This document shows positions 1,294 through 50,301 of a stretch of DNA of 64,000 nt, one piece after another. Both the position numbers and the translations under genes were made by a program. A model generated the notes under the pieces. The model ran no database searches. It saw only the letters and a list, made by a program, of their open reading frames with translations, and was not told the origin of the DNA. Source of the stretch: Gordonia sp. KTR9 (lineage in GTDB: Bacteria > Actinomycetota > Actinomycetes > Mycobacteriales > Mycobacteriaceae); the NCBI RefSeq assembly GCF_000143885.2, contig NC_018580.1, forward strand, positions 62,001 to 126,000, given 5' to 3'. Each line of letters starts with the position of its first letter. Within the stretch, counting starts at the first letter, position 1.

Positions 1294-1467
1294 ACCCTGC
1301 CTGAACAGGGGATACAGCTGGGACGACACAGCGAGTTTCGGTACGGCGTTATTTATTCACTGTGGTATTCTTGCCCGGAACCGGAGCGCGCGTGCGCACT
1401 CACAGCAGCAGATCACTTTCTCACCGAGGCAACCTGTCTCGGGATGCCATCGGGAGGACATCAGAAG

Positions 1468-3132
1468 ATGAAGGACGCAGGAAACGTCGGGGGACTGCCG
1501 AACCGCCGGGCTCGTCGAGCCGCCGGCCAGAGGGGCGCCCATCGAGCGGCCCCGTCGACCGCACCCAGCAAGACCGCACTGGGCGTCATCGGACTCGGAA
1601 CAGCACTGGCCGTGATGGCAGGGGTCGGCGGTGTCGCCGCAGCTGACCCCGAGTTCAATCCGTTGCCGCCCAGTGCAAGCAACCCGACGCCGAACACCTC
1701 GAACCCGACACCGCCCTCAGCTGATGTGGGCCCTGGCGCGATCATCGATCCGCCGAGCGAGTCGGGTTGGCGTTCCAACCCGTGGTCGGACAACGCGCCC
1801 GACTATGCGCCGATCCAGAACTGGACCCCGGCCGCCCCGACGTTCATCGGCCCGATCCAGTTGCCTCCGCCGCCGCCGATGATCATGCCCGAGCCGGGCA
1901 TGATCCGAGTCGGTAAGTACCAGGAGGTCAAACCGCCGTGGATGACCATGGCGGAGATGAACTCGATCAACCGCTGGTCGGCCTACATCGAGTCCCGCGT
2001 GGCGCAGTACTGGCTCAGCCAAGGCTTCTCGCAGGAGGAGGCTGACCGCCGAGCAGCGTCGATGACCGTGGGTGGGCTCGTCGGCGGTGCCGCCGGAGGC
2101 GCCGCAGGGTTCGCCATCGGCGTCGTTCCCGGCGCCGTAGTCGGTGGAGGCGTCGGCGCTCTGGCCGGCACCGCCATCGGCGCCGGTATCGCTGCGACCC
2201 TGGGTCTCCCGCTGAACTCACTGTTCCCCGTCGGCGGAACGGGTCTGTACGGCTCGTTCGTCGGAGTGGGTGCGGTCGCAGGTGCCGGAGCGGGCGCAGT
2301 CGGCGGGGCACTGGCCGGCGGTCTCATCGGCGGTGTGCTCGTCGGTGTGCCGGCGGCGGCGATCGGCGTGGGCCTCGGTTCGCTGTTCGGTGGCGGCGAC
2401 CCCAACGCAGAGATCGACCAGCCCTGGACCTACCGCGACGGACAGGGTTTGATCACGCCCAAGGACAACGTCCTGGAGTTCGACTGGAACGGGCCGGAGT
2501 CGAACAAGCTGCCTGGCGGTTGGGAACTGCCCGAAGAGGCGCACCTGAACTTCCAGGTGAAGGACGACAAGACCTACGTCGTCAAGCTCGGCGAGGAGCG
2601 GTGGCTTGGCGCCACCGAGCAGCAGCGCGACAAGCACTTCTACGGCGAAATGAACACTGCCGTACCGGGATTGGGCGATGCCGCCAAGGGATTCCTCGAA
2701 GACGAGGACGGTCAGTTCCAGAACACGATCCGGGGGCTCCTGGGTCAGATCGCCCGGGAGGATCCCGACAACGCTCAGTTCAACCCTCACGGTGACATCG
2801 CTGACCCCTCGGCACGTGCAGAGCGTGTCCCGTACCCGACGAGTTCGACCCCCGACCCGTGGGACGAGCCCAACCGGGAGGGCGTCGAGCGACAGAACGA
2901 AGAGAACCGTGGCACCGATCTGCCGGGGATGACGACCACGCCGGAGACCGGTCCGGCACCGACGCCGGCTGCACAGCCCACCGTGGCGCCATCTGTTGCT
3001 CCCCAGCAGATGGCCGTAGTACCGCAGCCGATCCAGGCTGCGGTGGATGCGGCCCCCGAACCGGTCCGCAAGGCCGTCAGCGACGCACAGAGCGCGCTCG
3101 GTCAACTGATTCCGGGGATGCTGGGCGCCTGA
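1468..3132 (+). CDS. Secreted glycine-zipper protein
   Basis: The start at 1468 is preferred over the ATG at 1444 because GGGAGGA (1452-1458) sits nine bases before it. The protein is 554 residues. It opens with a basic stretch, then a hydrophobic signal segment ending in an AAA-type site (GVAAADPEF), so export is likely. A Pro/Asn-rich region follows. The middle (encoded about 2070-2395) is a long run of GxxxG and alanine repeats, a glycine zipper that could insert in or oligomerise at a membrane. The C-terminal part is acidic, then Pro/Thr-rich, and ends in a short amphipathic helix. Similar actinobacterial proteins are sometimes called 'insoluble domain protein' (from memory). A role as an envelope channel or adhesin for mating is inference. 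A strong terminator follows directly. Confidence 0.8.
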   Translation: MKDAGNVGGLPNRRARRAAGQRGAHRAAPSTAPSKTALGVIGLGTALAVMAGVGGVAAADPEFNPLPPSASNPTPNTSNPTPPSADVGPGAIIDPPSESGWRSNPWSDNAPDYAPIQNWTPAAPTFIGPIQLPPPPPMIMPEPGMIRVGKYQEVKPPWMTMAEMNSINRWSAYIESRVAQYWLSQGFSQEEADRRAASMTVGGLVGGAAGGAAGFAIGVVPGAVVGGGVGALAGTAIGAGIAATLGLPLNSLFPVGGTGLYGSFVGVGAVAGAGAGAVGGALAGGLIGGVLVGVPAAAIGVGLGSLFGGGDPNAEIDQPWTYRDGQGLITPKDNVLEFDWNGPESNKLPGGWELPEEAHLNFQVKDDKTYVVKLGEERWLGATEQQRDKHFYGEMNTAVPGLGDAAKGFLEDEDGQFQNTIRGLLGQIAREDPDNAQFNPHGDIADPSARAERVPYPTSSTPDPWDEPNREGVERQNEENRGTDLPGMTTTPETGPAPTPAAQPTVAPSVAPQQMAVVPQPIQAAVDAAPEPVRKAVSDAQSALGQLIPGMLGA

Positions 3133-3188: not shown

Positions 3189-3323
3189 GTTTCAACGCCG
3201 CAATAGTTTTCAAACAACAATTGTTCGCACACCCTCAGTAGGTTGTATTTATCCTGTTCAGAGGCAGTGTTATGGTTGTTTCGAGTATTGCCGCCTATAT
3301 GTGCACCGGAGAGTTGGGGGACA

Positions 3324-5117
3324 ATGGTTGAGGCCGACACTCCGAGTCGAATGATCGACTCGGAGGCGTATCCATTACTGGGCAAATACACTGCCGCCCT
3401 GTTGCCACCGGTCGGGCGGATCATTGGCCGCGAAAACGAGAGGCAGCAAGTACTCGCATCGCTCGCGCGACCGCGGCTGTCGAACATCCTTCTTCTGGCG
3501 CCGGCCGGGTCCGGAAAGACCGTCCTCGTTCAGGACACGATGATGCATGACCCCCAGCGGGTCTACCTGGAAGTCGACTTGGCACGCATGAACGGCGGGG
3601 TGGGCCTGGCCGACCACATGGCCGCCGAGATCAAAGCTCTCTTCGACGACGCCGAAGCGTACGCCCGGGCCGAAAGTATCGAGTTGGTCCTGTTCATCGA
3701 CGAGTTCCACCAGATCGTCCAGATGTCGCCGGCCGCGGTCGAAGCTCTCAAGCCGGTCCTGGCGGCGTCAGGAGCGCGCGGCCTGAAAATTGTCGCGGCC
3801 ACCACGTTCGAGGAATGGATCGAACACATCCGGCCCAACAAACCTCTCGATGAACGCCTGCAACGAGTGAATCTGACCCCCGCCACCCGCGATATGACCA
3901 TCGAGATTCTGCGCAGCTTCGCTGAGGAAGCAGGTGTGCTGGATCAGTTCGAGCGCAGCGACGGGCTGTTCGGTGAGATCCACGACGTCACCAACCGCTA
4001 CATCCCCTCGTCCGTGCAGCCACGAAAAGCCATCGGGATCCTCGACGGAATGATCGGCTGGCATCGCCAAACCGGAGAACCGATGTCCATGGCGCTGATG
4101 TCGAAAGTCCTGCGGCAGTCGACAGGGGTGAACCTGGAGTTCGCCATCGATGGGGCCTCGATCAAAGCCGAGCTTGACAAGAAGGTCTTCGCGCAGGACC
4201 TGGCAACGACGATCGTCTCTGACCAGCTGCAGCTGGTCGTCGCCGGCCTTCATGACCGGAAGCGACCCAAAGGTCGGTTCTTACTGACCGGCAGCACTGG
4301 TGTCGGTAAGACCGAGCTGACGAAACAGCTCGTGGACCTACTCTTCGCCGACGACCTCAACAGACTCATCCGGTTCGACATGTCCGAGTTCGCACTGGAC
4401 TCGTCGATGGACCTCTTTCGCTCAGAACTGACCAAGAAGGTCGTCTCGATGGGTGACGCGGTGATCCTGCTCGATGAAATCGAGAAGGCCTCACGCATGG
4501 TGCTGCGCTTGATGCTGCAAGTTCTCGATGATGGTCGACTCAGCGACGACTCCGGCCGGCAGGTCAGCTTCCTCGACTGCTACATCGTGCTCACCACCAA
4601 CGCCGGCAGCGAAGTATTCAACACGATCAGCGACTACGCCGCTGACGACACAGGCTCGGGCGAAGGACTCAAGGACTACATGAAGTCCATCGAGAACTCG
4701 ATCCGCAGCGCCAACGACTTTCCCCCCGAACTCCTCGGACGACTGGACCGGATCGTGCCTTTCCAACCGCTGTCTGATGCGACCAAACGCAAGATCCTGC
4801 AGCGAGGTCTCGACGACCTGCGCGACGACGTGTTGAACAAGCACGGGGTCCGGCTCGGCATTCATCCCCGGGTTATCGAGTACCTCGCTATCGACGTCGG
4901 CGAAGCGTCCGCTGACGCCGGCGGGGCGCGTGAGTCGATGCGCGCACTGCAAGGGCAAATCAAGGTAGAAGTCGCGAAATACATCAACGCGAACCCCAAC
5001 GACAAAATCCTGCTCCTGGAGATCGACGGCGAGATGCGCGCGGAGAACTTGGAACTCCGAAAGTCCAAGGCCAGACCGCGGGTTCGGGCAGAACGACGAC
5101 ACCGTCTGGTCGGGTAG
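3324..5117 (+). CDS. Two-domain Clp-family AAA+ ATPase
   Basis: The chosen start (597 residues) has GGAGAG ten bases upstream; the frame is open further back to 3243. The first AAA+ domain has Walker A APAGSGKT (K65) and Walker B FIDE (D126, E127). The second has GSTGVGKT (K329), then FDMSEF, and LLDEIEKA (D384, E385) followed by LQVLDDGRL, a signature shared with ClpA/ClpB/ClpX-type unfoldases. The aromatic pore-loop stretch usual between FDMSE and the second Walker B in ClpB (GYVGY type) is missing; that gap is short here. No ClpP-binding loop or ClpB middle domain is evident. It probably remodels a protein or complex of the transfer apparatus, but the target is unknown. It has its own upstream region after a terminator. 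Confidence 0.85.
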   Translation: MVEADTPSRMIDSEAYPLLGKYTAALLPPVGRIIGRENERQQVLASLARPRLSNILLLAPAGSGKTVLVQDTMMHDPQRVYLEVDLARMNGGVGLADHMAAEIKALFDDAEAYARAESIELVLFIDEFHQIVQMSPAAVEALKPVLAASGARGLKIVAATTFEEWIEHIRPNKPLDERLQRVNLTPATRDMTIEILRSFAEEAGVLDQFERSDGLFGEIHDVTNRYIPSSVQPRKAIGILDGMIGWHRQTGEPMSMALMSKVLRQSTGVNLEFAIDGASIKAELDKKVFAQDLATTIVSDQLQLVVAGLHDRKRPKGRFLLTGSTGVGKTELTKQLVDLLFADDLNRLIRFDMSEFALDSSMDLFRSELTKKVVSMGDAVILLDEIEKASRMVLRLMLQVLDDGRLSDDSGRQVSFLDCYIVLTTNAGSEVFNTISDYAADDTGSGEGLKDYMKSIENSIRSANDFPPELLGRLDRIVPFQPLSDATKRKILQRGLDDLRDDVLNKHGVRLGIHPRVIEYLAIDVGEASADAGGARESMRALQGQIKVEVAKYINANPNDKILLLEIDGEMRAENLELRKSKARPRVRAERRHRLVG

Positions 5118-5242: not shown

Positions 5243-7843
5243 ATGGATGATGAAATCGACTTTTTCAGTGACGTCGATCCCGCGGATCTCAGCGATGTAG
5301 TCGTCGAAGAATCGGAGGCTGCCCAGGGGGGTGTCCGATCGAAGATCGACCGGGTCGTCGGCGGCGCACGGTTGCGGCTGTCCCGCGGCGATGGGTCCGG
5401 CGATCTGCTCAACGCTGACGCACGGCTGTCGTCAGTGGTCAGTGAGTCAACGCCGGGCGCCGCGCTGGAGCTCCTCCGGCTCAATACGCCGTTCACGTTC
5501 CCGGACTTGAATGCATCGGTGATGCTGGTGCTCCCGACGGTGGGCGACTTCGGCGGGCTCAGTCGGCGCAGCAAGGATGAAGCGCGAGGCACGATCATCA
5601 ATCTGATTGCCGCGGACAACATCCACGCGGTCGTGACGGCCGAGTTGCTGGCCGACGATGCTCTTGGGATCGTGCCCGATGTCGAGTCTCTGGCGCGCAT
5701 GGAAGAGATCTCGCTTCTCACCGATGCCCGCTACCTATATGCGGTGGCCTGTGAGGATGTCGAGACCGGTGAAGTCAAGGTGTTCTCGGTCCCACCGCGT
5801 TCGCAGGAAACAGCCGTCAGCGGCAAACTCTTCGAGCAAGCCCTCGCGATCTCACAGGGCCAGCTCGACGTGACCTCGGTGCTGGACAAGAACCTGATCG
5901 CCGCGATGCTCACGATCTATCGATCGGCAGAGAACACGTGGTCGGCGACAGAGGCCTTGAAGAAGGCCGAGGACATGAACATGGAGTACCTGGCGAACGC
6001 GTTTCGTCAGGGTAGCTACCCCACCGGTACCGAGTTGGTGGAGAATCTCGCGACTCAGTTCCCGGAACTGAACGACTACCGCAGTAGCGGGCAGCGAGTT
6101 GGCCGACACAGCGCTGCCGTCGTGCACGAATCGGCGGCGGCCGAGGGCGCCGACGTGGTGCAGAGTGAGGGCACAACCGATTCGTTCGAAACGGTTGACG
6201 CCGTCAACGATATTGACGTCCTCGAGGATGACGACGTCGTCTTCGACGATGATGTGGCTGCGTTTGGTGACGAACCTGATTTCAATCTCGAGATGCACGA
6301 CACCGGTGTGGACGACACCGATGATGCCGAGACCGAACCGGACTTCGCCGAAGCTGTCGGCGGTGCTGAATCGGCTGGCACCGATGAACCTGCCTTCTCT
6401 GGGCCTGATTTCGCGGACACACCCCCAACCGCTAACGCTGACACCGAGGCGGTCACAAAGGCTGTCATCGCCGCCACGAGCCCTCAGATCGAGGCGCTGC
6501 GTTCGGATCTGACGGGTCTGTTCGGTGAAATTCAGAAGACGCTCGCCCCGCCGCAACGAACGACAGAGGGTGGACACCCGATCGCCGACGGGGTTACGCG
6601 CAGCGCCGAGATCACTGTGGAACCCGGCTCGGAGTTCACCTACGACCAGGCTCTCGAAGCGGCCGGCCGGGTCTACGGCGACGACGATCTGGGGCTGGTC
6701 GTCGACCCCCAGCCATTCCGGGAGCGGCTGGTGTCGCCGCTTCCGCAGGTGCCTGTTCCCCGCGGTGCTCACACCCCTTGGCTCGGCGAGCAGGCGACCA
6801 CGATGGCCGATGTCCTCAACGAGCAGCTGCGGAAGCTACACGTCGACCACGAGCAACTTCTCTACCGGCAGTTCATGCACCTGGCCGACCTTGCCGCGAA
6901 GGAAATCAGCTGGGAGTTCGACCCGCAACGCAACCCTGATTCCCGGTGGGGACGGGTGTATGCGGCAATCGAGTCCGACCGGGAGAAGATCGCCGAGCGC
7001 GCGGCGCCGGCCAAACTTCGTGCCGAAGAGTCCGTGCGTGAAATGTGGGACGCCCGAGCAGAACTGTTCGTCTCCGACGCCGCCGCACGGGCCCGCCAAG
7101 AGTTCGAACATCGAAACGGCGCCCACATAGAAGCCGACATGCGCAAGGCAGGCGATCAGGTGATCGCCGACCTGGAAGCCATGGGCATGATGAATCTCGC
7201 CGAACTCAATGAGAGCAGAAGGATCTCCGCGCGGCTGCAGATGGACGAGAAGCTCTCCGACATCCTGCATTCGTTGGAGGGCAAGGCCGCCGACCAGCAG
7301 GCCAACGAGACGGCGGCGTTCGAGGCAGCGCTGGCCGCCGTGACCTCGTACATCGAGGAGCACCGCAAAGACGACCTCCTCCAGGCAGATGTGACCGCCC
7401 GGAAGCTGGAAACCGATGCGCGATACGAGCAACTGATGGCTGAAGCGCAGGCTCAGATCGCGGCTGCCCGATCCGAGGCGGATAACCGCATCGCGATGAT
7501 GCTCGAGGAGATGGATCGTCAGCGCGAGGCTCACCAGCGCGGTCTTGACTTGCGGACCACGAACTTCGAGTGGGAGCTGAGCGGGCAAGCGCAACGGCAG
7601 CAACAGCTGGAACGGCGACTCGAGCAGAGTTTTGCTGACTGGGAAAGCGAGCGGCGGGAGCTCCAGAGTAAGGCCGACGCTCGAGTTGAGATGGCGGAGA
7701 AAGCGCGGGACGAGGCCATCGCGGACAAGGAGACGATGCGAGAGCGCGATTCGCGCATGGCCACCGCGGCGATCGTCCTTGTTGTCCTCGGCGCGATCGT
7801 ATTGGTCAGCCTGGGCATCCTGGCCGGGGCGTTCCTGATCTGA
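5243..7843 (+). CDS. Tail-anchored coiled-coil protein
   Basis: This 866-residue protein has an acidic N-terminus (MDDEIDFFSDVD). A folded-looking first third (about residues 60-250) is followed by a very acidic linker (about 290-420) and then a long helical region rich in Glu, Arg, Gln and Ala (about 540-830) that should form a coiled coil. A single hydrophobic helix closes the chain (about 843-866), so it is probably a C-tail-anchored membrane protein facing the cytoplasm. GAAGG lies about ten bases before the ATG. It precedes the coupling-protein gene by 90 bases and may share its transcript. I recognise no family; a scaffold or docking role next to the coupling protein is inferred from position. 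Confidence 0.8.
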   Translation: MDDEIDFFSDVDPADLSDVVVEESEAAQGGVRSKIDRVVGGARLRLSRGDGSGDLLNADARLSSVVSESTPGAALELLRLNTPFTFPDLNASVMLVLPTVGDFGGLSRRSKDEARGTIINLIAADNIHAVVTAELLADDALGIVPDVESLARMEEISLLTDARYLYAVACEDVETGEVKVFSVPPRSQETAVSGKLFEQALAISQGQLDVTSVLDKNLIAAMLTIYRSAENTWSATEALKKAEDMNMEYLANAFRQGSYPTGTELVENLATQFPELNDYRSSGQRVGRHSAAVVHESAAAEGADVVQSEGTTDSFETVDAVNDIDVLEDDDVVFDDDVAAFGDEPDFNLEMHDTGVDDTDDAETEPDFAEAVGGAESAGTDEPAFSGPDFADTPPTANADTEAVTKAVIAATSPQIEALRSDLTGLFGEIQKTLAPPQRTTEGGHPIADGVTRSAEITVEPGSEFTYDQALEAAGRVYGDDDLGLVVDPQPFRERLVSPLPQVPVPRGAHTPWLGEQATTMADVLNEQLRKLHVDHEQLLYRQFMHLADLAAKEISWEFDPQRNPDSRWGRVYAAIESDREKIAERAAPAKLRAEESVREMWDARAELFVSDAAARARQEFEHRNGAHIEADMRKAGDQVIADLEAMGMMNLAELNESRRISARLQMDEKLSDILHSLEGKAADQQANETAAFEAALAAVTSYIEEHRKDDLLQADVTARKLETDARYEQLMAEAQAQIAAARSEADNRIAMMLEEMDRQREAHQRGLDLRTTNFEWELSGQAQRQQQLERRLEQSFADWESERRELQSKADARVEMAEKARDEAIADKETMRERDSRMATAAIVLVVLGAIVLVSLGILAGAFLI

Positions 7844-12172: not shown

Positions 12173-12191
12173 GTTCGGAGTTTCTCTCAGA

Positions 12192-12226
12192 CAAACACCG
12201 GAGCAGCATCTCTGCTCCGGTGTTTG
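12192..12226 (+). terminator. Intrinsic terminator after the coupling-protein gene
   Basis: A perfect 15-bp stem (12192-12206 with 12212-12226) has the 5-base loop CATCT. The right arm ends in TTTG. It separates the coupling-protein unit from the RNA-polymerase-like gene downstream. Confidence 0.9.
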
Positions 12227-12270
12227 CACGTCCGGGGCAGTTCAGGGGCCACGTCAAGCGCTCCACGAGT

Positions 12271-12296
12271 TTGACGGCATGTACTACTATAAGAAT
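12271..12296 (+). promoter_or_regulatory. Candidate promoter of the RNA-polymerase-like gene
   Basis: TTGACG (12271-12276) is followed by an AT-rich stretch, TACTATAAGAAT (12285-12296), unusual in this GC-rich window. The spacing of the best -10-like hexamers is 11 to 14 bases, shorter than the usual 17, so the match to a housekeeping sigma promoter is only partial. Its position, 40 bases before the start codon and after a terminator, supports a promoter somewhere here. Confidence 0.3.
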
Positions 12297-12335
12297 AGAT
12301 CCAGTTGAACTGACCCGTTCAGCACACGCCATGAG

Positions 12336-15300
12336 ATGAGGTTCGGGGTGGACGTCAAAGCCCGCGGTATTGGTCGGTACTTGAACGAATACACATTCCA
12401 TAGGGCCCTCTCGGAGTACCCGAAGTGGCGCACCCGCCGTGGTGAAGACGTCCCTGCATTGCGCGCCAGCCAGGGGCGGGAAGCTCGGCGACGTCTCGAC
12501 GAAGCGCTCGCCCGACGCGGAGCCTCCATCGACCGACTCGGCGAGGGCGGACCCGCTGTCCTCATGGCGTCAATCGACGAAGCCCTGGGCTCGATGTTCG
12601 AGACCTACACCCCTCTGTTTCCCGACGCCGAGAAGGGCAACGAGCAAGCCAGCTACGCGAAGATCAAGGCCGCGTTCGGCCTCTACATCGGAGCGGGCGG
12701 CCAAAATCCTCCCGGGGGAGTTCGGTTGCCGGTCAGTCCCTTCGATCCCCGATGGGCCCGACGCGAGACGGTGCTCAACCATGGCACCGAGATGATGTCC
12801 ATCGTCGACGAGGATGTACGACACGAACTCGGTGACCAACAAGCCGGATACGACCGTCTCCATCGTCTCGCGCCGCAGGGCGCCTTCGCGCTATACGCCC
12901 TCAATCCTGAGGATGGACAGCACCAACCGGCCGAGATCGGAGCTTCGATCACCGAAGCCGACGTGACGGGACTCAGCGCACTACGGCCGTTTATGAGTGC
13001 AGCCGAGTACCGCGAGCTCGCACCGTGGGTGCTGGCCGGCGCGAGAGAGAAGGGCCCGATGGGTCCAGCGGCTCTGGAGCGCTCGCTGGCCATTCTGGAG
13101 CATCTCGGTGAGTCGGGGACGAACTACCGGATGGTCAAGGACCGCAACCCCGGACAGATCGCCGCCTCCATCGTGGGGACCAAGGCGGCGGTGCGTATCG
13201 CTGACGTTGCGCCCAACGACGTCTGGGTCGGTCGCGTATACGACGACGGTATCGCCACCTACTACTCCGACAAGAAGGGCAAGGGCGCAGCGATCTACGA
13301 GGCATCGCCCGCGGAGGCGGTGTCGCTGTTGCGTTTCGCCCTGGGTGAGCGAGTCGAACGGCTCGACGGGCAGGGAACAGTCGGCGTGGTGGGGGCGCGA
13401 GACCGGACCCAGCCACGTCAGCGCCAGCGCAGCTACCACGTCGGCTCGAAGAACGAAGCCATGCTCGAAACCCGGGACGGTTTGTGGATCCGGCGCGATG
13501 CGAAAGTCGTCAGCCAACGCACCACCTGGTTCGAGGGCCCTGACGCTGCCGAGGTCTACCTGCGAGCCGCAGTGGCCTCGGCTGCCGAGGGGGTCACCGC
13601 TGCCATCGACGTCGAAGGCTTGATCGAGGAGGCCGCTGCCAACATCGGTGATCCCAACCACGTGCCGGACTTCTCCGGCGCACCCGAAGAGATCGTCGCG
13701 CTCAAACAGGACTACTGGCGATTGCTCACCGACCCCGACTCCGGGGTTCTGCTGCTCAACCCCGGTGCATCCGCAGCCGACTACGCCTCGGCCATCGCAG
13801 CCGGTGACCACGCGGCCGCAGCCGCCGCCACATCGGCAATGGACGCAGGCCCGTACCCGCAAGACAAGATCCGAGCACACGCCCATCTGGTCGCACAGTC
13901 GATGATCGGTAGTTTCGAAGCTGACAGGGAGGGACTTCGGTTCGATCCGGTCCGTGTCGCACAGTTCATGGCCACCGAACACAACGTGTGGCGCAACAAC
14001 GACGACATCGTTGAGGCCTGCGCCAAAGCCGGGATCGTCGCTGATGAGCTGCGCGGCGACGGTTACTACAACAAGATGGTCGCCGACAACCTCATCAGTT
14101 TCGACCCCGCCACCGCGGTCGAGGTCAGCGAGCATCCGTCGCCACTGATGCGGGCGATGGGCGAGCGGGTCAAAGCCGCCATTGAGCGCGGTGCCGCTGA
14201 AGTGACGAGTGTTCAGGTCGACGACAACGGGATCATCGCGTGGCAGGCCGAACGGCGGGTCGGCGAAGACGACAACCGTTCGCTCGGGGCGACCGGCGAG
14301 GAAGCTAACCGCAAGAAGCGTTACGTCCGAGGCACTATCGGCCAGGTTCTCGACCGCGGCCCCAACAACGAGGTCGTCACGAAGTTCGCCGGCGGCGACA
14401 ACTTCCTGTTCATGCCGGGCTTCGAAGCCTCGGTGGTCTCCCAGAAACCTGGCGAGAACCTCACCCTGGAACAGCGCACCCGAGTCAAAGGCTACGAGCA
14501 GGTCCTGGGCGAAACGATTGAGTCGATCATCGCCAAGGACATCGCGAATCCACGCAGCGAGGTGGGACGGGCGACGTCGCTGAACTCCACCATCCGGCGG
14601 CTGGCAAGCAACCGACACCCTGTCGACTTCTACGAGCGTTCGGCCGAAGAAGGACTCTCGGACCAGTGGCGTGATGCGATCTTGTCCACCGAAGCCCGTC
14701 GTGTCCGTTACCCCACTGAGCTGGCAAAGGGTTCCAACGCGCTCAAGCACCGACAGGCACAGAACGACCCCACCTTCGACGAACTCAATGACAACGGTCG
14801 CGATCCGCTGATCCTCACAGGCATGCGGAACATGAGCGTGCTCGATCGCGATGCGGGACACGGGATCTTCGACCCGATGATGACCGGAATGGCCGAAAAC
14901 CAAGGGGTGGTGCGGTATCTGACCCCCGGGGTCGCAATCACCGCCGATGGAGCCATCGTCCCCAGCGCAACACCTGAGGCGCGAGTCCCCATCGCAGCGC
15001 ACGAGGATGCCTGGGCAATGGGATTCGACCCCCACGACCGACAGAACATGACCTACTCAAACGTCATGCAAGCGTCGGCGGTTGTCGCCGGTGTCAAGAC
15101 CGCGATGGCACAGATCGGAGGCTGGAACTTCGAAGACGGGATCGTCGTCTCGCGCCACTTCGCCGAGGAACACCTGATCCGCGACACCACCGGGCAGATG
15201 CGCCCGCTGACGGTGGGTGACAAGCTCAGCGACTTCCACGGCAACAAGGGCGTGATCAGCCTGATCGTCGACCGCGATATGGACGCTGACCAGGCACGCG

Positions 15301-18185
15301 ACTTGGGACTGTCCGAGCAGGTCGCGATGTTCGCCGCCAACCCCGAGCTCGAAGTGGTGATGAGTCCCTTCTCACCGATCAGTCGATTCAACGGCGGCAC
15401 AGCGCGCGAGATGATCGCCGCCGCGTCGGATCTGCAGGCTCCCGGTGACGACGGCCGCATGCAGACCGTACCCGCGGGTATGGGCGAACTGAGCCTGATC
15501 GTGACCCACATGGCTGTCGACGCCAAGACCAATGTCTACGACGCCGAAGCCATGGCCCAGGGCAAGGGGCGCAAGGCGTCCTCCCAGTTGGCGTGGGCGT
15601 TGCAGAGCCAGGGTGCCTACGAGGTGATGCGACAGTTCTACGGCGACAACACCTCTGGCCTGGCCGACGTGCGTGAGTACATGCTGGTACTCGGCCTCGA
15701 CGTCGAGCACGATGGATCGCTGCGTTCGCAACCGACACCGCAAGCACTGGCAGAACGTACGTTGTTCGAAATCCCGGCCCCGATCCGTTTCGCTCGCAGC
15801 AAGACGCTGCCTGAAGATCAGCTGCCCCGCATCAACCACGCGGCAATGGGAGAAGCCTTCGGCGAAGCGATCAGCCGCAGCGGTGGCCTGATGGAACTAC
15901 CGTTCGAACTCAAGCTCGCCGCTGGCGGCGCCACGCCGGCCTCGCCCGCTAACCCAGGACGGTGGGTGCTGCCCGTGCTGAGTTCACGATTGCGTAGCGA
16001 GCAGGACATGGTCGACGGCACCGTCAGCCGCCACGATCACACCAAGCGATACATGTCGATTTCAGAAAGCGCGACCGCCTTCGTCGAGGCGGAGAGGCTG
16101 CGCGATGAGGCGCGCGAGAAAGGCGATGCCGCCGCGGAGGCCCGCCACAACGAAGAGATGGCGGTACGTCAAGCCGAGGCGCAGCGGTCGTACAACTCGA
16201 TCAGCGCCGATGTGATCTCACGACGCATCGAATCCAAGAAGAACATGTTCAAGGAATCGATCATGTCCAACCGGCTCTCGCACTCGGCGACAGCGGTGTG
16301 GACTGGCGACCCACGCCTAGAGGTCGACCAGATCGCGATGAATTCGGCGATGGCCGTCGAACTGGGTGTACCGATGATGACCCGCGAGGACGCCGAGGAA
16401 GCTGGGGTCCCCTACGTTCCGGGAACCCCCCGCGACGACGGCTACGTTCTGGTCTGGCGTGACCCGGTGCTGCGCGACGGCGGCGTCCGCTATCTGCGAG
16501 TGAGCATTGATGACTCATTGACGGGTGTCGCGGTCAACCCGGTCTCGGTCAAGTCCATGGACGGCGACTTCGACGGGGACTCGGTGGGGCTGGTCGGCAA
16601 CCTGAGCCCATTCGCTCACTTCGAGGCCCTCGACAAGCTGACTGTCGAAGCCAACCTGCTCGACAAGGGCGCGCGCACAACGATCGGGGTCTGGGAACGC
16701 GACGCGCAAGGCGAGATGCAGCGAGTCGGTGAACGCGAGGTGTACCCGCTGAGCCTGCACACCTCACTCGACATCGAGGTCGCCTGCCACAACAACCCTG
16801 AACGCAGAGCCGATCTGGAGGGATTGATCGGCGAAGCCAATGACAACGAGTACGCGCGCCGCGCTGGGACGATGAGTGCAGAAGAATTTTGCGACGCCAA
16901 CCGTGCCGTGATGGCCGCATTGAGCGAGTCGATCTATAGCGAAGGCTTCACCGATACCGCGAACAGGGTTGTCCTGCGGTTCGGCGACCTCAGCGATCAT
17001 CTGGAATCAGTGAAAGGCTGCTACACGCGCGGCGGCAAGGGCAGCGTGAACAAACTGCTCGAGTACGCGCAGTACTTGGGCGCCGAACCGGAGTCGGTCA
17101 CCGAGGTCAGCGGCGAACGCATCGTTACGCAGTGGCGCGACGCCGGCATGCCCGATGCGGCTGCATTCGACGAGAAGTATCGAGGTTCGCAAGCAGCGAC
17201 CGCCTTCAAGTCTCAGATCACCGGCATCGCCGGATCGATCAGTCAAAGCGCGATCCAGTTGGCCAGGGCCCAAGGCTTGATCACCGCGGCCTGCGAGATC
17301 AGCTACCCGGCAACTCAATCGGTGCTACAAGCCAAACACGATCCGGTTGACGCGGCCTACCGCGCCGACATCATCAGCGGCGCGGCCAAAGACCTGTGGC
17401 GAGGCAACAAAATGACGGTCGCACCCGACGAGAACGGCCGTCACCGGTGGGACGTCGTCCGCGACGACCAGGGTCAGCCGGTACAAGCGACGTCGAAAGA
17501 GTGGACCGAGCAGTTCATGAGCATGTACGCCGACAAAGCCGGCATGGGCGTACCGATTGCACGTGAACACGTCGAAGCGATGGCTGCGGCGCTGAGCGAC
17601 TCAACAGGCACGATGTTCCAAACCGATCGCCAATCATGGGAAGACTGGCCCGATTACGCGCGACCACTGACCCTCGATGCCTTGGCCTACGGCGGCAAGT
17701 TCGACGACGTGTTGGCAGCAGCCGAAGCCGGCGGAAAACTGTTCGAAGGCGTGAACGCCTCGTTCGCGCCAACCACCGTGCTCGACAATCTCGCACTCGA
17801 CGAGCAGTTGAGGGCTACAGGTATCGACCGTTCAGATTCGATCGAATACACAGCGATCGGACGAACCGACACCTACGCAGCGCATCGCCCCAAGCTGAGG
17901 CGTTCGGAGTGGACCGCGCGCACCCGCAGCGCGAGTATGGGCAGTTCGTCGCGGCCAGATCCCTTCGAGAAGGCGCCCGCCACCAGGCCTGCCCGGGAGG
18001 CGGAACGAGTCTCGTTGCCGGCGGTCGCGGCCGCCGACACTTCTGTGCGCGCACCGGCCATGGCGGCGAACCAGGCAGGTGACCGCGGGGCGCCGACGGC
18101 GGCGTGGAATCGGTTGGCGGCTGAGGCGCAGGCGTTGGTGAGACCCGCAGACCGTACGTCTGAGAGCGAAGGGCTGGGGGCGTAG
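12336..18185 (+). CDS. Single-chain beta-beta' RNA polymerase
   Basis: One chain of 1949 residues carries hallmarks of both large subunits of multisubunit RNA polymerase in the order beta then beta'. Beta part: NFEDGIVVS (931-939), then GDKLSDFHGNKGVIS, with K963 and K971 spaced like the two active-site lysines of E. coli beta (1065, 1073). Beta' part: LPVLSSRLRS (from 1212), FKESIMSNRLSHSA (from 1305, matching the RxNLLGKRVDYSGR region), then GDFDGD, whose D1411, D1413 and D1415 match the metal-binding NADFDGD. A segment GGKGSVNKLLEYAQ (from 1566) resembles the bridge-helix start. PATQSVLQAKH (1658-1668) fits the trigger helix, keeping T, Q and the His ten residues after the Pro. Residues 1-700 and the low-complexity tail (after about 1790) are unassigned. 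The ATG has no clear Shine-Dalgarno; a GTG at 12348 with ATGAGG seven bases upstream is an alternative. A stand-alone RNA polymerase is inferred; other divergent examples known to me are phage YonO and a corynebacterial prophage protein. Confidence 0.9.
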   Translation: MRFGVDVKARGIGRYLNEYTFHRALSEYPKWRTRRGEDVPALRASQGREARRRLDEALARRGASIDRLGEGGPAVLMASIDEALGSMFETYTPLFPDAEKGNEQASYAKIKAAFGLYIGAGGQNPPGGVRLPVSPFDPRWARRETVLNHGTEMMSIVDEDVRHELGDQQAGYDRLHRLAPQGAFALYALNPEDGQHQPAEIGASITEADVTGLSALRPFMSAAEYRELAPWVLAGAREKGPMGPAALERSLAILEHLGESGTNYRMVKDRNPGQIAASIVGTKAAVRIADVAPNDVWVGRVYDDGIATYYSDKKGKGAAIYEASPAEAVSLLRFALGERVERLDGQGTVGVVGARDRTQPRQRQRSYHVGSKNEAMLETRDGLWIRRDAKVVSQRTTWFEGPDAAEVYLRAAVASAAEGVTAAIDVEGLIEEAAANIGDPNHVPDFSGAPEEIVALKQDYWRLLTDPDSGVLLLNPGASAADYASAIAAGDHAAAAAATSAMDAGPYPQDKIRAHAHLVAQSMIGSFEADREGLRFDPVRVAQFMATEHNVWRNNDDIVEACAKAGIVADELRGDGYYNKMVADNLISFDPATAVEVSEHPSPLMRAMGERVKAAIERGAAEVTSVQVDDNGIIAWQAERRVGEDDNRSLGATGEEANRKKRYVRGTIGQVLDRGPNNEVVTKFAGGDNFLFMPGFEASVVSQKPGENLTLEQRTRVKGYEQVLGETIESIIAKDIANPRSEVGRATSLNSTIRRLASNRHPVDFYERSAEEGLSDQWRDAILSTEARRVRYPTELAKGSNALKHRQAQNDPTFDELNDNGRDPLILTGMRNMSVLDRDAGHGIFDPMMTGMAENQGVVRYLTPGVAITADGAIVPSATPEARVPIAAHEDAWAMGFDPHDRQNMTYSNVMQASAVVAGVKTAMAQIGGWNFEDGIVVSRHFAEEHLIRDTTGQMRPLTVGDKLSDFHGNKGVISLIVDRDMDADQARDLGLSEQVAMFAANPELEVVMSPFSPISRFNGGTAREMIAAASDLQAPGDDGRMQTVPAGMGELSLIVTHMAVDAKTNVYDAEAMAQGKGRKASSQLAWALQSQGAYEVMRQFYGDNTSGLADVREYMLVLGLDVEHDGSLRSQPTPQALAERTLFEIPAPIRFARSKTLPEDQLPRINHAAMGEAFGEAISRSGGLMELPFELKLAAGGATPASPANPGRWVLPVLSSRLRSEQDMVDGTVSRHDHTKRYMSISESATAFVEAERLRDEAREKGDAAAEARHNEEMAVRQAEAQRSYNSISADVISRRIESKKNMFKESIMSNRLSHSATAVWTGDPRLEVDQIAMNSAMAVELGVPMMTREDAEEAGVPYVPGTPRDDGYVLVWRDPVLRDGGVRYLRVSIDDSLTGVAVNPVSVKSMDGDFDGDSVGLVGNLSPFAHFEALDKLTVEANLLDKGARTTIGVWERDAQGEMQRVGEREVYPLSLHTSLDIEVACHNNPERRADLEGLIGEANDNEYARRAGTMSAEEFCDANRAVMAALSESIYSEGFTDTANRVVLRFGDLSDHLESVKGCYTRGGKGSVNKLLEYAQYLGAEPESVTEVSGERIVTQWRDAGMPDAAAFDEKYRGSQAATAFKSQITGIAGSISQSAIQLARAQGLITAACEISYPATQSVLQAKHDPVDAAYRADIISGAAKDLWRGNKMTVAPDENGRHRWDVVRDDQGQPVQATSKEWTEQFMSMYADKAGMGVPIAREHVEAMAAALSDSTGTMFQTDRQSWEDWPDYARPLTLDALAYGGKFDDVLAAAEAGGKLFEGVNASFAPTTVLDNLALDEQLRATGIDRSDSIEYTAIGRTDTYAAHRPKLRRSEWTARTRSASMGSSSRPDPFEKAPATRPAREAERVSLPAVAAADTSVRAPAMAANQAGDRGAPTAAWNRLAAEAQALVRPADRTSESEGLGA

Positions 18186-18524
18186 ATGGGTGTCGACTTC
18201 AACGCCGAACCGAGTCCGGAAGGGCTGGCGCGGGTAGCAGAGTTGCGTCGTCAGCGTGCCGAACGTGACAAGGCGCTCGAGGACCGGATTGTTGCCGTGC
18301 AGATGCAGGACCCCGAGGCCGCTGGGCTCCACCAGCAACCGACAAGCACTCCGGTGGAGGCGTCCGTCGATGACGAGGTCGAGCGGGAGGAACCTGAGCA
18401 GGACCAGTCCCGCAAGCGCATCGGCGACACGATCCCCGCGCGCGAGAACACACCATCGCCCACGGCGCAGCTCGAGGCGCTTGCGTCGCTCTCGCGCGCA
18501 CGCAGCACCGACAGACAGCGTTGA
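18186..18524 (+). CDS. Small acidic/charged protein coupled to the RNA polymerase gene
   Basis: The ATG follows the stop of the RNA-polymerase-like gene with no gap (TAG then ATG), so translation is probably coupled and the two products are likely made together. The 112-residue product has a helical, highly charged first third (EGLARVAELRRQRAERDKAL) and a low-complexity acidic remainder. No family is recognised. The arrangement makes it a candidate accessory subunit or assembly partner of the polymerase (inference). Confidence 0.7.
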   Translation: MGVDFNAEPSPEGLARVAELRRQRAERDKALEDRIVAVQMQDPEAAGLHQQPTSTPVEASVDDEVEREEPEQDQSRKRIGDTIPARENTPSPTAQLEALASLSRARSTDRQR

Positions 18525-18589
18525 CCAGACCGCACGAACGATCGACACAGGGACGCACCGGTGTCCCCGTTGAGAATGGGGAGACAGTG

Positions 18590-20926
18590 ATGACAGCACC
18601 GACCGGGGCGCAAAGTCCGATCCAGAAGCAGCCCGCCGACCCCGTGCAGGCATCGGCGACAAAAAAGCGTCAACCTCGCGGGATCGAGAAGGGCCAGCCC
18701 GAACCGGCACCCTCGCCTATGCAAGAACCCGAGCTCGAGATCGAGATGACTGATGGTGTCGAACTCGGCGACAACGTATTCGCCGACGTGATTCCCGGAC
18801 CGCCGGCACCGAACACACAGCCGCCGACGGAAGCCTCGCGAGCGGCAGTAGCGCGCGAGGCCGTAGACCGCAGGCGGGCGATCAGGAAAGGGCTTCGCGA
18901 CCAGTCGGTGGGTAACCGGCTGTTCTCCGGCGAGAACGCCACACGCACGCCCAAGGAGCGGGCAGGACTGCTCAGTGCGCGTCACGATCAGTACACGCAG
19001 CTGATGGCGCTGAACTGCATCAAACCGCTGGCACAGGGAATAGACCTGAGCACACTGATCGAGTCAGTATCGAGCGCCGCAGTCATGTGGGCACTGAGCC
19101 CTCGTTTTCGTGAATTGACAGCCGACTACAACACGAAGATCAACGACGCGTTGCGCTTCATCCGAGCGAAGAACTTCGAGGACACCGCGAAGGTCCCGTT
19201 GGGTAGTAGTCGAGCGGTTGTCGAGCTGGCAAAGACCAAGGCCCAGCGGGCAGACAGAGAAATGCTCGATCAGGTTTCAGCAGTCCTGCAGGGGTCCGAG
19301 GAAGTTCCGTTCTCGACGGAATCGGCAGCAATGTCGTTGCTGCAGATCCACGAGGACGCCTACGTCGCGATTCGTGAGGGTGCTGATGAGGGGTACGTCC
19401 TGACAGCGCTGAGCGAGACCGTCGACGAGCTCACACAGGTGTGGAAGTCACAGAAACTCGACCCCCAGGTGGTGATAGCGACAGCACGCACGCTGACAGG
19501 ACACACAGAGGACGACGAGGACCTCAGGCTCGCACAATTTACCGAGACCGCTAGCGGCAGCCTTCGACCGAGCGCGCAAACCACGACGCCCGGTGCTGGG
19601 GGCGCAGCCACGCTCACCTGGGGTGGCCAATGGGCGCTGGCAACCGGCGGAATGCTCAACAGCGCCGAGTCCCCGTTCTTCACCGTGCGCAGTGTCCAGG
19701 ACGCGCGCAGCCATCAGGACGCCCTGGGCGCCCTCATTTTTCAGGACCTGCAGCTGGCCGCAAAGAGTGGACCGGCTGAGTTGCGCAAAGCAGTGATCGG
19801 TCACCTCGCGGCCTGGGAGCTGCGCGACACAAAACTCGACAACACCGGAGTCGGCGGAGCCTCACGAGATCGGGCCGCGGCATGCGCCCAGCGGAGCCGA
19901 GTAGCGTTCGCCGCGATGGCCGACGACGGTATCACCGAGGAAATTCGTCAGAAGGTCGCGGCCAACGCCTTGCTCAACGGCATGACTGCTTTTGAATCGT
20001 CGGAGCCCGAGGTCGTCGCGGCGATGGCCCGGGAGTTCGGAGAGAGCCACAACGAGGCTGTCGCAGAGATGGTCAAACGGGGCAAGGAGCGAGGTCGACC
20101 CGCACCCCTGAAGCCTGTTGTGTTCAACCCGAGCAATCCCACGCACGCCGCTCAGATGGCCGACTACACAGGACCGGGTAAAGAGCCTGAGGCTCCGCGC
20201 GATCTGGGAGTGCAGCAACCTCGCGCCACGGCGTTGGCCCCTTGGGGGCCACGGGCGCACCAGGCGGTGCTCGATGCGGAGAACGCGCGTGCGCGCGTCG
20301 TCGGCCGTGAGGGCGCCGGCCCGGCGCGGGTCGACACCATTGACCGTCCGCAGCCGGTCCGGCAAGGCGTTGACAAGCAGCAGCCCAGCGGGACGGAGTC
20401 CCGTCCGCCGACGCCGCCGCGCGCAGTGTGGCGGCTGGTCAGGCCAGAGGAAAACGTACAGCGGCGGGCCCGTGGTTATGAGACCGTCGAACGTGTGCCG
20501 CTGGGCATGAAGCCCGTACCTGCTGACTGGTCGGGGTATCAGGAGGAGATTGCCAAGCGGGCCGACATGGAAGCGGCTGAGGCACGGTTGAGTTCGGCCG
20601 GCTCCCGTCGAAGGTCTGGGCGAGAAGCCGGTGTGCCGCAGGCAACTCCGACAGTGGGGCGTGGAGGTCCACCGTCGGAAACCACGCCCCAGTCGTCGCA
20701 GAGTGCGGCTACGCCGAAGCGCGGGGGCGCCCAGAACGTCCCACCCAGTAGGCCGGCACAGCGGTGGGCGCCGGATCCGGTCAACACCGGATCAACCGGC
20801 CCGGCTCCTCAGCCTGTGCCAAGCCGACCCGCCGACAAGGTCCCGCCGATGCGCACTCGGCAACAGGTTCACGGGAATTCGCCTCGGAGTAGGGACCGGA
20901 GCACTGGGCCAGAACTCGGCGCTTGA
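18590..20926 (+). CDS. Unknown large protein in the RNA polymerase operon
   Basis: The ATG at 18590 is preferred (778 residues) because GGGGAG ends six bases upstream; the frame is open back to 18521. The first 80 residues are Pro/Ala-rich and probably disordered. Residues about 80-520 look mainly helical and globular, without a recognisable motif, signal peptide or membrane segment. The last 230 or so residues are rich in Pro, Arg, Ser and Gly (disordered). It lies 65 bases after the small coupled gene and is probably co-transcribed with the polymerase. It could be a relaxosome protein, a template-recognition factor or another transfer protein; the sequence alone does not decide. Confidence 0.75.
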   Translation: MTAPTGAQSPIQKQPADPVQASATKKRQPRGIEKGQPEPAPSPMQEPELEIEMTDGVELGDNVFADVIPGPPAPNTQPPTEASRAAVAREAVDRRRAIRKGLRDQSVGNRLFSGENATRTPKERAGLLSARHDQYTQLMALNCIKPLAQGIDLSTLIESVSSAAVMWALSPRFRELTADYNTKINDALRFIRAKNFEDTAKVPLGSSRAVVELAKTKAQRADREMLDQVSAVLQGSEEVPFSTESAAMSLLQIHEDAYVAIREGADEGYVLTALSETVDELTQVWKSQKLDPQVVIATARTLTGHTEDDEDLRLAQFTETASGSLRPSAQTTTPGAGGAATLTWGGQWALATGGMLNSAESPFFTVRSVQDARSHQDALGALIFQDLQLAAKSGPAELRKAVIGHLAAWELRDTKLDNTGVGGASRDRAAACAQRSRVAFAAMADDGITEEIRQKVAANALLNGMTAFESSEPEVVAAMAREFGESHNEAVAEMVKRGKERGRPAPLKPVVFNPSNPTHAAQMADYTGPGKEPEAPRDLGVQQPRATALAPWGPRAHQAVLDAENARARVVGREGAGPARVDTIDRPQPVRQGVDKQQPSGTESRPPTPPRAVWRLVRPEENVQRRARGYETVERVPLGMKPVPADWSGYQEEIAKRADMEAAEARLSSAGSRRRSGREAGVPQATPTVGRGGPPSETTPQSSQSAATPKRGGAQNVPPSRPAQRWAPDPVNTGSTGPAPQPVPSRPADKVPPMRTRQQVHGNSPRSRDRSTGPELGA

Positions 20927-23603: not shown

Positions 23604-24119
23604 TCAGAACGGAGGCTCGTCATTGTGGCCGCCGAACGAACTGCTGGCGGGTGCGCTGCCCCAGGGATCGTCGGCGACCTGCTGGTTCGAGTTCCCGCCG
23701 CCGCGGCTACCGCCGGCGCCACCGGACCCGAATCCGCCGCCACCACCGCCACCGCGCGAGGCGCGGTTGACCTTGGCGGTGGCATACCGCAGTGAGGGGC
23801 CGATCTCGTCGACCTCGAGTTCCACGACCGTGCGTCGTTCGCCCTCTTTGGTTTCGTAGGACCGCTGCTTGAGCCGTCCCTGCACGATCACCCGGGATCC
23901 CTTCGTCAGGCTCTCGGTCACGTTCTCCGCGGCGTCGCGCCAGATGTTGCAGCGGAGGAACAGCGCTTCGCCGTCCTTCCACTCATTGGTCTGGCGGTCG
24001 AAGGTGCGCGGAGTGGAAGCCACCGTGAAGTTGGCAACCGCTGCGCCGGACGGCGTGAACCGCAGTTCCGGGTCGGCGGTCAGATTGCCGATGACGGTGA
24101 TGACGGTATCGCCTGCCAT
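23604..24119 (-). CDS. ssb: Single-stranded DNA-binding protein
   Basis: The start at 24119 (171 residues) is set by AGGAGA a few bases upstream on the coding strand; the open frame extends further but that part is not SSB-like. The N-terminal OB-fold (about 1-110) has the usual landmarks ([54 protein letters not shown]). A glycine-rich linker follows and the chain ends NDEPPF, the acidic tip that recruits partner proteins. It coats single-stranded DNA; on a conjugative element it would protect the incoming strand and support replication. It heads a leftward gene series at the edge of the transfer module. Confidence 0.97.
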
Positions 24120-24334
24120 GCGTATCTCCTGAGTTATAAGTCGCGACTGTGGCTCGATCGTAGCTGGCGCGTAGCGGGTCGCCGTGTACCCGCTCCGTGA
24201 GATCGGGGATGAGCGCGCCATCACGTCGATAATCCGCAAGACAAACAGCCTGATCGGGTCGATCAGGAGCTCGCCCAGTTGAGAAGCCCGGAGGAAGATC
24301 AGGGCCTTTCAATACCAGTATCGCGCCGGGGAGA

Positions 24335-34189: not shown

Positions 34190-35017
34190 CTATGCGGCTT
34201 GAGGTTGGTGGGTCGTGGTCCACTGTAGGGCGAACTCGGCGGGGGTGAGTCCGTGGTGGGCCGAATGGGGTCGGTTGGCGTTGTAGTCGATCCTCCAGTC
34301 TTCGATGATGACCCGGGCTTCGCGCAGGGAGTCAAAGCGCCAGGAGTTGAGCAGCTCGTCGCGCAGGCGGCCGTTGAACGATTCGATCCAGGCGTTCTGC
34401 CACGGGGAGCCGGGGTCGATGAATAGTGATCCGGTGCCGTTGAATCGGCACCAGTCGTTGACGGCGTGAGCGACGAATTCCGGTCCGTTGTCGAACCGCA
34501 CGTAGCACGGTGGACCATGTATCAGGGCCAGGCGGTCGAGAACGTCAACCACGCCATCGGCGTTGATGACGCGGTCGACGTGGATCACCAGGGCTTCGCG
34601 GGTGAACTCGTCGATCACGTTGAGCATTTTGATGGTTCGGCCGTCGGCGGTGGTGTCGAATTGGAAGTCCATCGCCCAGATCACGTTCGGCCGGATTGGG
34701 CACATCGCCCCAACCGCGGTCCCGATTCCGGTGAGCCGTTTCTTCCTGCGGCGCTGGGGAACTCGCAGCCCCTCCTCACGCCACAGGCGGCGGATGCGTT
34801 TGTTGTTGACCGTGAAGCCCGCTTTGCGCGCGGCGATCGCGGCGCGTCGCCAGCCCCAGCGGGGCCGGTCGGTGGAAAACCCACGTAGCCAGGACCGCAG
34901 CTCGGCTTCCTCCGCGGTGATCGGCGCTGGGTGCAGTCGCATCGTGGAGCGGTGGATGCCCACCACAGCACATGCTCGCCGCTCAGATACCCCGAACCGC
35001 TCACGCAGCATCGTCAC
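34190..35017 (-). CDS. IS3-family transposase OrfB (DDE catalytic domain)
   Basis: A 275-residue open frame with the HTH_21-like start (MLRERFGVSERRACAVVGIHRST in short form) and an rve-type DDE core: IWAMDFQFD (first Asp), VRFDNGPEF (second Asp) and AWIESFNGRLRDE (Glu), then NANRPHSAHHGLTPAEF. In IS3 elements the full transposase is an OrfAB fusion made by a -1 ribosomal frameshift; OrfA ends 23 bases upstream and OrfB's frame is open across the junction, which fits. The stop lies next to the left inverted repeat. Confidence 0.93.
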   Translation of the reverse strand: MTMLRERFGVSERRACAVVGIHRSTMRLHPAPITAEEAELRSWLRGFSTDRPRWGWRRAAIAARKAGFTVNNKRIRRLWREEGLRVPQRRRKKRLTGIGTAVGAMCPIRPNVIWAMDFQFDTTADGRTIKMLNVIDEFTREALVIHVDRVINADGVVDVLDRLALIHGPPCYVRFDNGPEFVAHAVNDWCRFNGTGSLFIDPGSPWQNAWIESFNGRLRDELLNSWRFDSLREARVIIEDWRIDYNANRPHSAHHGLTPAEFALQWTTTHQPQAA

Positions 35018-35040
35018 GGCGCTGCGCTTGCGGTTCGGGG

Positions 35041-35328
35041 TCAGAAGTTTCCCGACGAAATCTCCTTGAGCATGTCGATATCGAGGGCCTGGTTGGCGAC
35101 CAACTTCTTGAGCCGAGCGTTCTCAGCTTCGAGTTCTTTGAGGCGTTTGACGTCATTGGCCTTCATGCCCCCGTACTGGGCCACCCAGCGATGCCAGGTC
35201 GACTCTGTGACCTCCAGATGCCGGCACACCTCAGCCAACTCCTGCCCGGTCCCGAGGAGCTTGTTGCCCTCGGCCAGCTTGCGGATGATCTGATCCGGCG
35301 TATGCCGCCGGCGCTTGCTACCTGCCAT
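35041..35328 (-). CDS. IS3-family OrfA (helix-turn-helix and leucine zipper)
   Basis: A 95-residue protein starting MAGSKRRRHTPDQIIRKLAE, with a helix-turn-helix (TGQELAEVCRHLEVTESTWHRW region) that binds the IS ends and a C-terminal zipper (LKELEAENARLKKLVANQAL). It ends EISSGNF just before OrfB. It regulates transposition and supplies the N-terminus of the OrfAB fusion. Confidence 0.9.
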   Translation of the reverse strand: MAGSKRRRHTPDQIIRKLAEGNKLLGTGQELAEVCRHLEVTESTWHRWVAQYGGMKANDVKRLKELEAENARLKKLVANQALDIDMLKEISSGNF

Positions 35329-35408
35329 GTCGTCGTCGATTCTTCCTGCCCAAACACTCGGGCAACAGAGTCGCACAACAACTGGACCACTACGAAGGGC
35401 CCACCTCA

Positions 35409-38027: not shown

Positions 38028-38059
38028 TGTCACCGGCAGACAACGGAAGGGGGCTATCC

Positions 38060-39589: not shown

Positions 39590-39652
39590 CTTCCAGTCGC
39601 TCGCCGACTGCGGGCGCTACCAAACCGCGACGGCGACGGAGCCGCTGAGCTA

Positions 39653-47343: not shown

Positions 47344-47525
47344 GGTCGACCGTCTCCGCTGCCCCCTGAGGCCGCCTTCGACGAGGGCTGTCGGTGGCAA
47401 GCAAACGTGGTGCGACGTGGACGTTGCCTGAGTTTTCGTCGGGCTTGGCCGATAGGTTTAGATGTGCGGGCTTCACGGCGTAGGTCGCCGTTCAGCTTTG
47501 CCAAAGGGTGAGTAGAGGGGTCGAT

Positions 47526-50300: not shown

Positions 50301-50301
50301 C

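Follow-up and report, generated by a model that had tools for sequence, protein, structure and literature searches.

A single-chain β-β′ RNA polymerase homologue encoded beside a conjugative coupling protein, with candidate hairpin promoters in staphylococcal relatives

Phages of the P23-45 and jumbo groups own RNA polymerases (RNAPs) of the multisubunit type, and virion forms of such enzymes are injected with the DNA. The promoters of another virion enzyme, the RNAP of phage N4, are hairpins with short stems and 3-nt loops that lie before early genes. Virion forms of the P23-45 and jumbo-phage RNAPs are on record (PMC10770324, PMC7598289), YonO of SPβ is a proven single-chain phage polymerase (PMC5467207), and fused polymerases of mobile elements have already been named in print (PMC7824862). 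Cellular β carries in its barrel an inserted flap domain that binds sigma or TFIIB, and passages of PMC7824862 describe this insert as missing in YonO and in the NCGL1702-like enzymes. Within the parts of the literature searched, no paper shows a polymerase tied to a conjugation module. The sequence-only reading of the DNA studied here had held the link of a fused polymerase to a coupling protein to be, as far as it knew, undescribed; the link to the coupling protein stands, but the novelty is narrower than was stated, because fused polymerases of mobile elements were already in print (PMC7824862).

The window, by which we mean the whole stretch of 64,000 nucleotides that was analyzed, covers bases 62001-126000 of a contig of 182,454 bases in a genome of 5.89 Mb and four contigs. 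A frame that looks ParA-like opens the contig, whose two ends do not overlap; the contig is likely a plasmid. The polymerase gene had been claimed to encode one chain of 1949 residues, and its frame is open for 1949 codons on the plus strand (Table); a search of the genome's contigs returned this ORF as the single match. Two protein searches with the polymerase gave at least 53 and at least 57 matches, which are lower bounds because about 8,000 candidates were scored in each, and ordinary RNAP subunits stood among the last rows of the second. The closest named relatives came from Rhodococcus, and the named sources as a whole were Rhodococcus, Streptomyces, Actinomadura, Amycolatopsis, Arthrobacter, Kribbella, and Staphylococcus. 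None of the phage records matched the protein by tblastn; in IMG/VR, six contigs matched, one of them over nearly the whole query. Over 1943 codons aligned with the homologue on pGS01, dN was 0.114 and dS 1.17: the gene is under strong purifying selection and is maintained.

All the catalytic and substrate-contact motifs proposed at the outset were found at their residues: GDK with K963, HGNKG with K971, LPVLSSRLRS, FKESIMSNRLSHSA, the aspartates D1411/D1413/D1415, the bridge-helix-like GGKGSVNKLL, and PATQSVLQAKH at 1658-1668. In an 80-row alignment of the window fragment with 79 relatives, K963, N970, K971, R1375, P1377, D1411, D1413, D1415, K1568, G1569, Q1661, and K1667 were invariant, and residue 1668 was His in 74 rows, Lys in five, and Gln in one. 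The resemblance goes beyond chance: the Pfam family RNA_pol_Rpb2_6 scored above its cut-off on residues 949-980 (28.4 against 23.4 bits), and Rpb1_2 scored below its own on residues 1366-1431 (20.8 against 25.3). Searched against the PDB, the profile of the polymerase family matched β′ chains at an E value of 1.7e-20, with DFDGD aligned to DFDGD and GAKGS to GARGS. The β′-type half thus aligned holds the DxDxD metal-binding triad of the two-barrel RNAP superfamily, and the β-type half holds its two basic residues, K963 and K971. Profile searches placed these lysines, the triad, and the bridge helix at their RNAP positions as had been predicted; the match of the PATQ..H segment to the trigger helix has motif and conservation as its basis.

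The predicted structure bears out the proposed order of β followed by β′, with the modeled core aligning first with RpoB and then with a largest RNAP subunit; each half, aligned on its own, has the predicted fold of its RNAP counterpart. As far as the tools reach, neither fold nor alignment spoke against the proposed homology to both cellular subunits, and we regard the gene product as a supported single-chain β-β′ RNAP. The best fold match of residues 1-600, the DNA-binding domain of T4 MotA, lay under the noise line. We read V918 as part of the first half of the β barrel; only 45 residues separate it from K963. In the model, two long helices (615-642 and 646-679) form a pair at the place of the β′ clamp helices, and we read this pair as their likely counterpart. 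A second, different single-chain β-β′ fusion of 2069 aa was seen at L105:12163-18372, on a 4.88-Mb contig from a genome of the same order, and the 19 kb read there gave no other match to reference conjugation proteins. Twelve Clostridioides difficile plasmid records (about 97-150 kb) also match the β lysine region, and in 11 of the 12 the matching site is annotated as an RNAP β subunit.

We found the polymerase gene embedded in a conjugation module (Table). The gene upstream, taken from the start for a type IV secretion coupling protein, indeed reads as VirD4-like. On pGS01 and on the Streptomyces plasmid the module runs in the order MobL relaxase, AAA+ ATPase, large protein, VirD4, polymerase, and further module protein; on the window's contig, a relaxase-like gene close to the pGS01 MobL lies ∼5 kb upstream of the window and matches NCBIfam MobP2 at E 9e-17, below the cut-off of that family. 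With an HMM derived from 40 such coupling proteins, we detected VirD4 directly upstream of the polymerase in 37 of 45 loci in named genomes; two of the remaining loci start inside or at the gene, and six have no VirD4 in 2.4 to 8.8 kb of upstream DNA. Several of the 45 sit in contigs of several megabases and are therefore likely integrated elements. In the two staphylococcal plasmids tested, VirD4 lies a few kilobases upstream of the polymerase with two genes between, and the same HMM did not find it near the polymerase gene of Lactococcus pJM4A. Conversely, the polymerase is encoded in every one of the seven plasmid records that match this VirD4 (E up to 1e-30). These neighborhoods uphold the proposed tie between polymerase and conjugation in both Actinomycetota and Bacillota.

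Table. Features of the polymerase locus and its surroundings (nucleotide positions in the window unless residues are given)
Feature	Position	Strand	Remarks
Module protein	1444..3132	+	conserved in pGS01
Clp-like double AAA+ ATPase of module	3243..5117	+	
6-bp hairpin, 3-nt loop	5145..5159	+	upstream of 5243
866-aa module protein	5243..7843	+	without Pfam family
VirD4-like T4SS coupling protein, 1412 aa	7934..12172	+	directly upstream of polymerase; adjacency conserved
Gap before polymerase gene	12173..12335	+	terminator-like hairpin 12193-12225; block 12279-12302 conserved with pGS01
Single-chain β-β′ RNA polymerase gene	12336..18185	+	1949 aa, ATG to stop, uninterrupted ORF
Polymerase, N-terminal part	residues 1-600		without secure known fold
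Polymerase, β-like part	residues 620-1105		
Polymerase, β′-like part	residues 1125-1815		
Polymerase, tail	residues 1816-1949		beyond modeled part
112-aa ORF between polymerase and next module gene	18186..18524	+	
Module protein downstream of polymerase	18521..20926	+	Streptomyces relative in same place, 24% identity, E 3e-26
Single-strand DNA-binding protein (SSB)	23604..24239	-	opposite strand to transfer genes, as in staphylococcal plasmids
HmaA	41474-44884		
HmaB	47508-50300		
HmaC	50236-53649		

Several further features of these modules were seen in passing. The module ATPase of the Streptomyces plasmid (L003:9123-13418) likely contains inteins, since it has domains of homing endonucleases and matches Hint weakly. 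The copy in Arthrobacter sp. Hiyo8 (L047) looks decayed or badly sequenced, its module genes being broken up into several frames. More AAA+ ATPases akin to the staphylococcal module ATPase occur on the minus strand near L016, L031, L039, L048, and L011 and also on the window's contig. Elsewhere in the window, Tni/Tn7-like transposition genes (TnsB-like, TniB, and two TniQ) at 34972-41311 lie beside an Hma defence system at 41474-53649.

The staphylococcal plasmids offered the clearest candidate signals. Upstream regions of SAP020A repeat the pattern GTGGTTGC-NNN-GCAACCAC-TTAGA; next come A-rich sequence, the ribosome-binding site, and the start codon of the gene, so that the N4-type feature of a short-stem hairpin with a 3-nt loop before genes is present in these relatives. 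Four plasmids hold 31 gene-side copies: 10 in SAP020A, five in TUM20888, seven in pAYP1020 (in 46,075 of its 59,661 bases), and nine in pHD75-1_1. All 31 lie on the strand that carries the SSB/ParA block, whereas the transfer genes are on the other strand. The annotated start codon follows within 60 nt in 25 of the 31 copies and at 34-41 nt in 19; six copies are farther from an annotated start or have none. SSB is the gene behind one hairpin in each plasmid, at 38, 35, 39, and 40 nt. Each plasmid also has one extra hairpin, oppositely oriented, close to the relaxase region; a terminator-like hairpin lies a short distance beyond it.

The stem covaries. Among the 26 copies aligned, 94.9% of cells are paired and six of nine pairs change on both sides; these double-sided changes fill 14 cells against 2.4 in shuffles, a value reached by none of 500 shuffles, and slid controls gave 0 to 2. 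The loop is free to vary, and a conserved consensus exists on one side only, downstream. Hairpins of this shape precede YTAG 13, 4, 10, and 9 times in the four plasmids, against null means of 1.55, 0.55, 0.8, and 1.15 from 20 resamplings per plasmid; for TUM20888 the maximum of the null was likewise four. Folding five copies as single-stranded DNA gave z scores of -3.1 or lower for four of them and of -1.5 for the fifth, which has a mismatch. The hairpin at SAP020A 59503 directly adjoins the upstream gene, so that a further promoter would not fit into this gap.

When 72,556 plasmid records were searched with a motif query from SAP020A, 50 of them matched at E values up to 10. The five staphylococcal polymerase records rank first by coverage and identity, with four to 11 places each; two of the five, both from S. 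aureus, agree in length and scores, and two S. simulans records have a better E value than the S. epidermidis polymerase record. Four S. simulans records in all carry the motif, at one or two places each, and have no polymerase match; the other records among the matches listed have E values of 0.08 or more. One of these S. simulans plasmids, pACK1, gave no polymerase match and has neither relaxase nor transfer genes annotated; the stretch read contains three hairpin copies, and the plasmid shares the conserved gap element that we take for a candidate oriT. This would suit a plasmid that hitch-hikes on a helper and relies on the helper's polymerase, but also a regulon that has nothing to do with the enzyme. 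A conserved 106-nt element with two inverted repeats (L067:19270-19375), possibly a mimic of an origin of transfer, occurs in 234 of the 72,556 plasmid records, 233 of them from Staphylococcus, and is found even on a 2.7-kb plasmid.

We saw no hairpin family of the staphylococcal type in the window's contig, nor in what was read of pGS01 (45,844 of 270,326 bases), of the Streptomyces plasmid (45,271 of 639,479 bases), and of Lactococcus pJM4A (85,839 of 90,767 bases). One 6-bp hairpin (Table) is a weak candidate for an analogous signal in the window's plasmid; it has an identical second copy on the contig, and loop variants occur inside the VirD4 gene and in pGS01. The gap before the polymerase gene is likely its promoter or operator, and a once-per-locus motif occupies the same position in most other actinobacterial loci.

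Judged by its sequence, the protein is very probably an active RNAP that serves its own element; RNA polymerization as such we infer from homology. We think it fairly probable that this intact single-chain enzyme, encoded beside a coupling protein, acts at dedicated promoters to transcribe genes of the element that carries it, with its extra N-terminal 600 residues perhaps recognizing DNA instead of a host sigma. As first proposed, it may work without alpha, omega, or sigma from the host. An inactive relic that serves as a structural part of the relaxosome or of the transfer channel would agree with a gene that adjoins that of the coupling protein, but it is very improbable given catalytic residues unchanged in 80 of 80 rows and the strong purifying selection. 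The hairpins make the strongest promoter candidates in staphylococci because they are one-sided, covary, keep mostly to a set distance, stand before SSB, and coincide with the polymerase. That they are promoters of the polymerase is accordingly our favored reading, held with some reserve. It competes with the view that they are duplex operators or 5′-leader RNA elements of a host-transcribed regulon, the polymerase having its targets elsewhere. The hairpins are palindromic, and a palindromic duplex operator would covary too; four S. simulans records carry them without a detected polymerase; and sigma-type matches upstream of the hairpin genes score neither better nor worse than in shuffled sequence, so that host-type promoters are neither enriched nor depleted and may well serve these genes. 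Such a regulon is possible but doubtful, since the consensus is conserved on one side, the loop varies freely, the spacing to the start codon is kept in 19 of 31 copies, and polymerase records lead the motif search.

Other uses of an active enzyme sit less well with the hairpins. It could read the transfer operon from duplex DNA with the hairpins unrelated, much as YonO, on the account of PMC5467207, transcribes one late operon of SPβ. The actinobacterial gene does sit inside the transfer module, where terminator-like hairpins separate several genes and might be ignored by a dedicated processive enzyme. We consider this unlikely, because actinobacteria show -10-like host signals at the polymerase gene and a neighbor, and because the best-ranked hairpin records are those with the staphylococcal polymerase. 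The enzyme might instead chiefly supply the RNA primers from which the complementary strand of transferred DNA is made, the task that host RNAP performs at Frpo, and the relaxase-region hairpin with its following terminator-like hairpin in all four plasmids would suit that role; this seems quite improbable when 31 further copies are gene-side, 25 of them close to an annotated start. If the hairpins are initiation sites for the polymerase, as we prefer, transcription could start on single strands that fold during transfer or on hairpins extruded from duplex DNA, and SSB and other establishment genes would thereby be made early. A single-stranded template in the recipient is a tentative part of this proposal, well short of an even chance. 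More speculative still is a fuller scenario, in which a Gram-positive conjugative lineage would bring its own sigma-free RNAP, either made or delivered along with the transferred strand, and hairpin promoters on the incoming single strand would switch on SSB and establishment genes before second-strand synthesis.

If true, this would make transcription of a conjugative element independent of the RNA polymerase and sigma factors of the recipient, which would help explain its spread between phyla. It would also open to testing the long-standing question of how Gram-positive bacteria express establishment genes while the transferred DNA is single-stranded, and it would offer a one-chain model of cellular RNAP that has the trigger helix missing in YonO (PMC5467207).

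Like YonO of Bacillus phage SPβ (PMC5467207), the polymerase is one chain, has the catalytic aspartate triad, and is carried by a mobile element. However, YonO has 839 aa (about 100 kDa) against 1949 aa here, and its trigger loop is described as undetectable (PMC5467207), whereas PATQ..KH is kept here. We found no sequence similarity between the two by hhalign (probability 0.2%), and BLASTP aligned them only around the DGD region (E 0.069); membership among YonO-like enzymes was rejected on similarity, size, and trigger loop. The NCGL1702-like enzymes, likened here by description only, are also mobile-element polymerases without the β-barrel insert (PMC7824862), and the passages of that source on them mention neither conjugation modules nor hairpins. 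The multisubunit-type RNAPs of P23-45 and jumbo phages are likewise homologues of cellular RNAP owned by mobile elements (PMC10770324, PMC7598289), but they are phage genes, and the polymerase here matched no phage record. The staphylococcal hairpins resemble the N4 promoters in their short stem, 3-nt loop, and place before genes, although the N4 virion RNAP has a T7-type polymerase module (PMC5512222) and the enzyme here is a two-barrel RNAP homologue. Frpo elements of leading regions are also folded promoters before SSB and establishment genes (PMC11541004), but they are read by host RNAP through -35 and -10 elements in a duplex-mimicking fold, whereas the staphylococcal signal is a bare 9-bp stem. 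By analogy with these systems, an element-borne RNAP of this kind might, as a tentative suggestion, be the conjugative counterpart of the injected phage polymerase.
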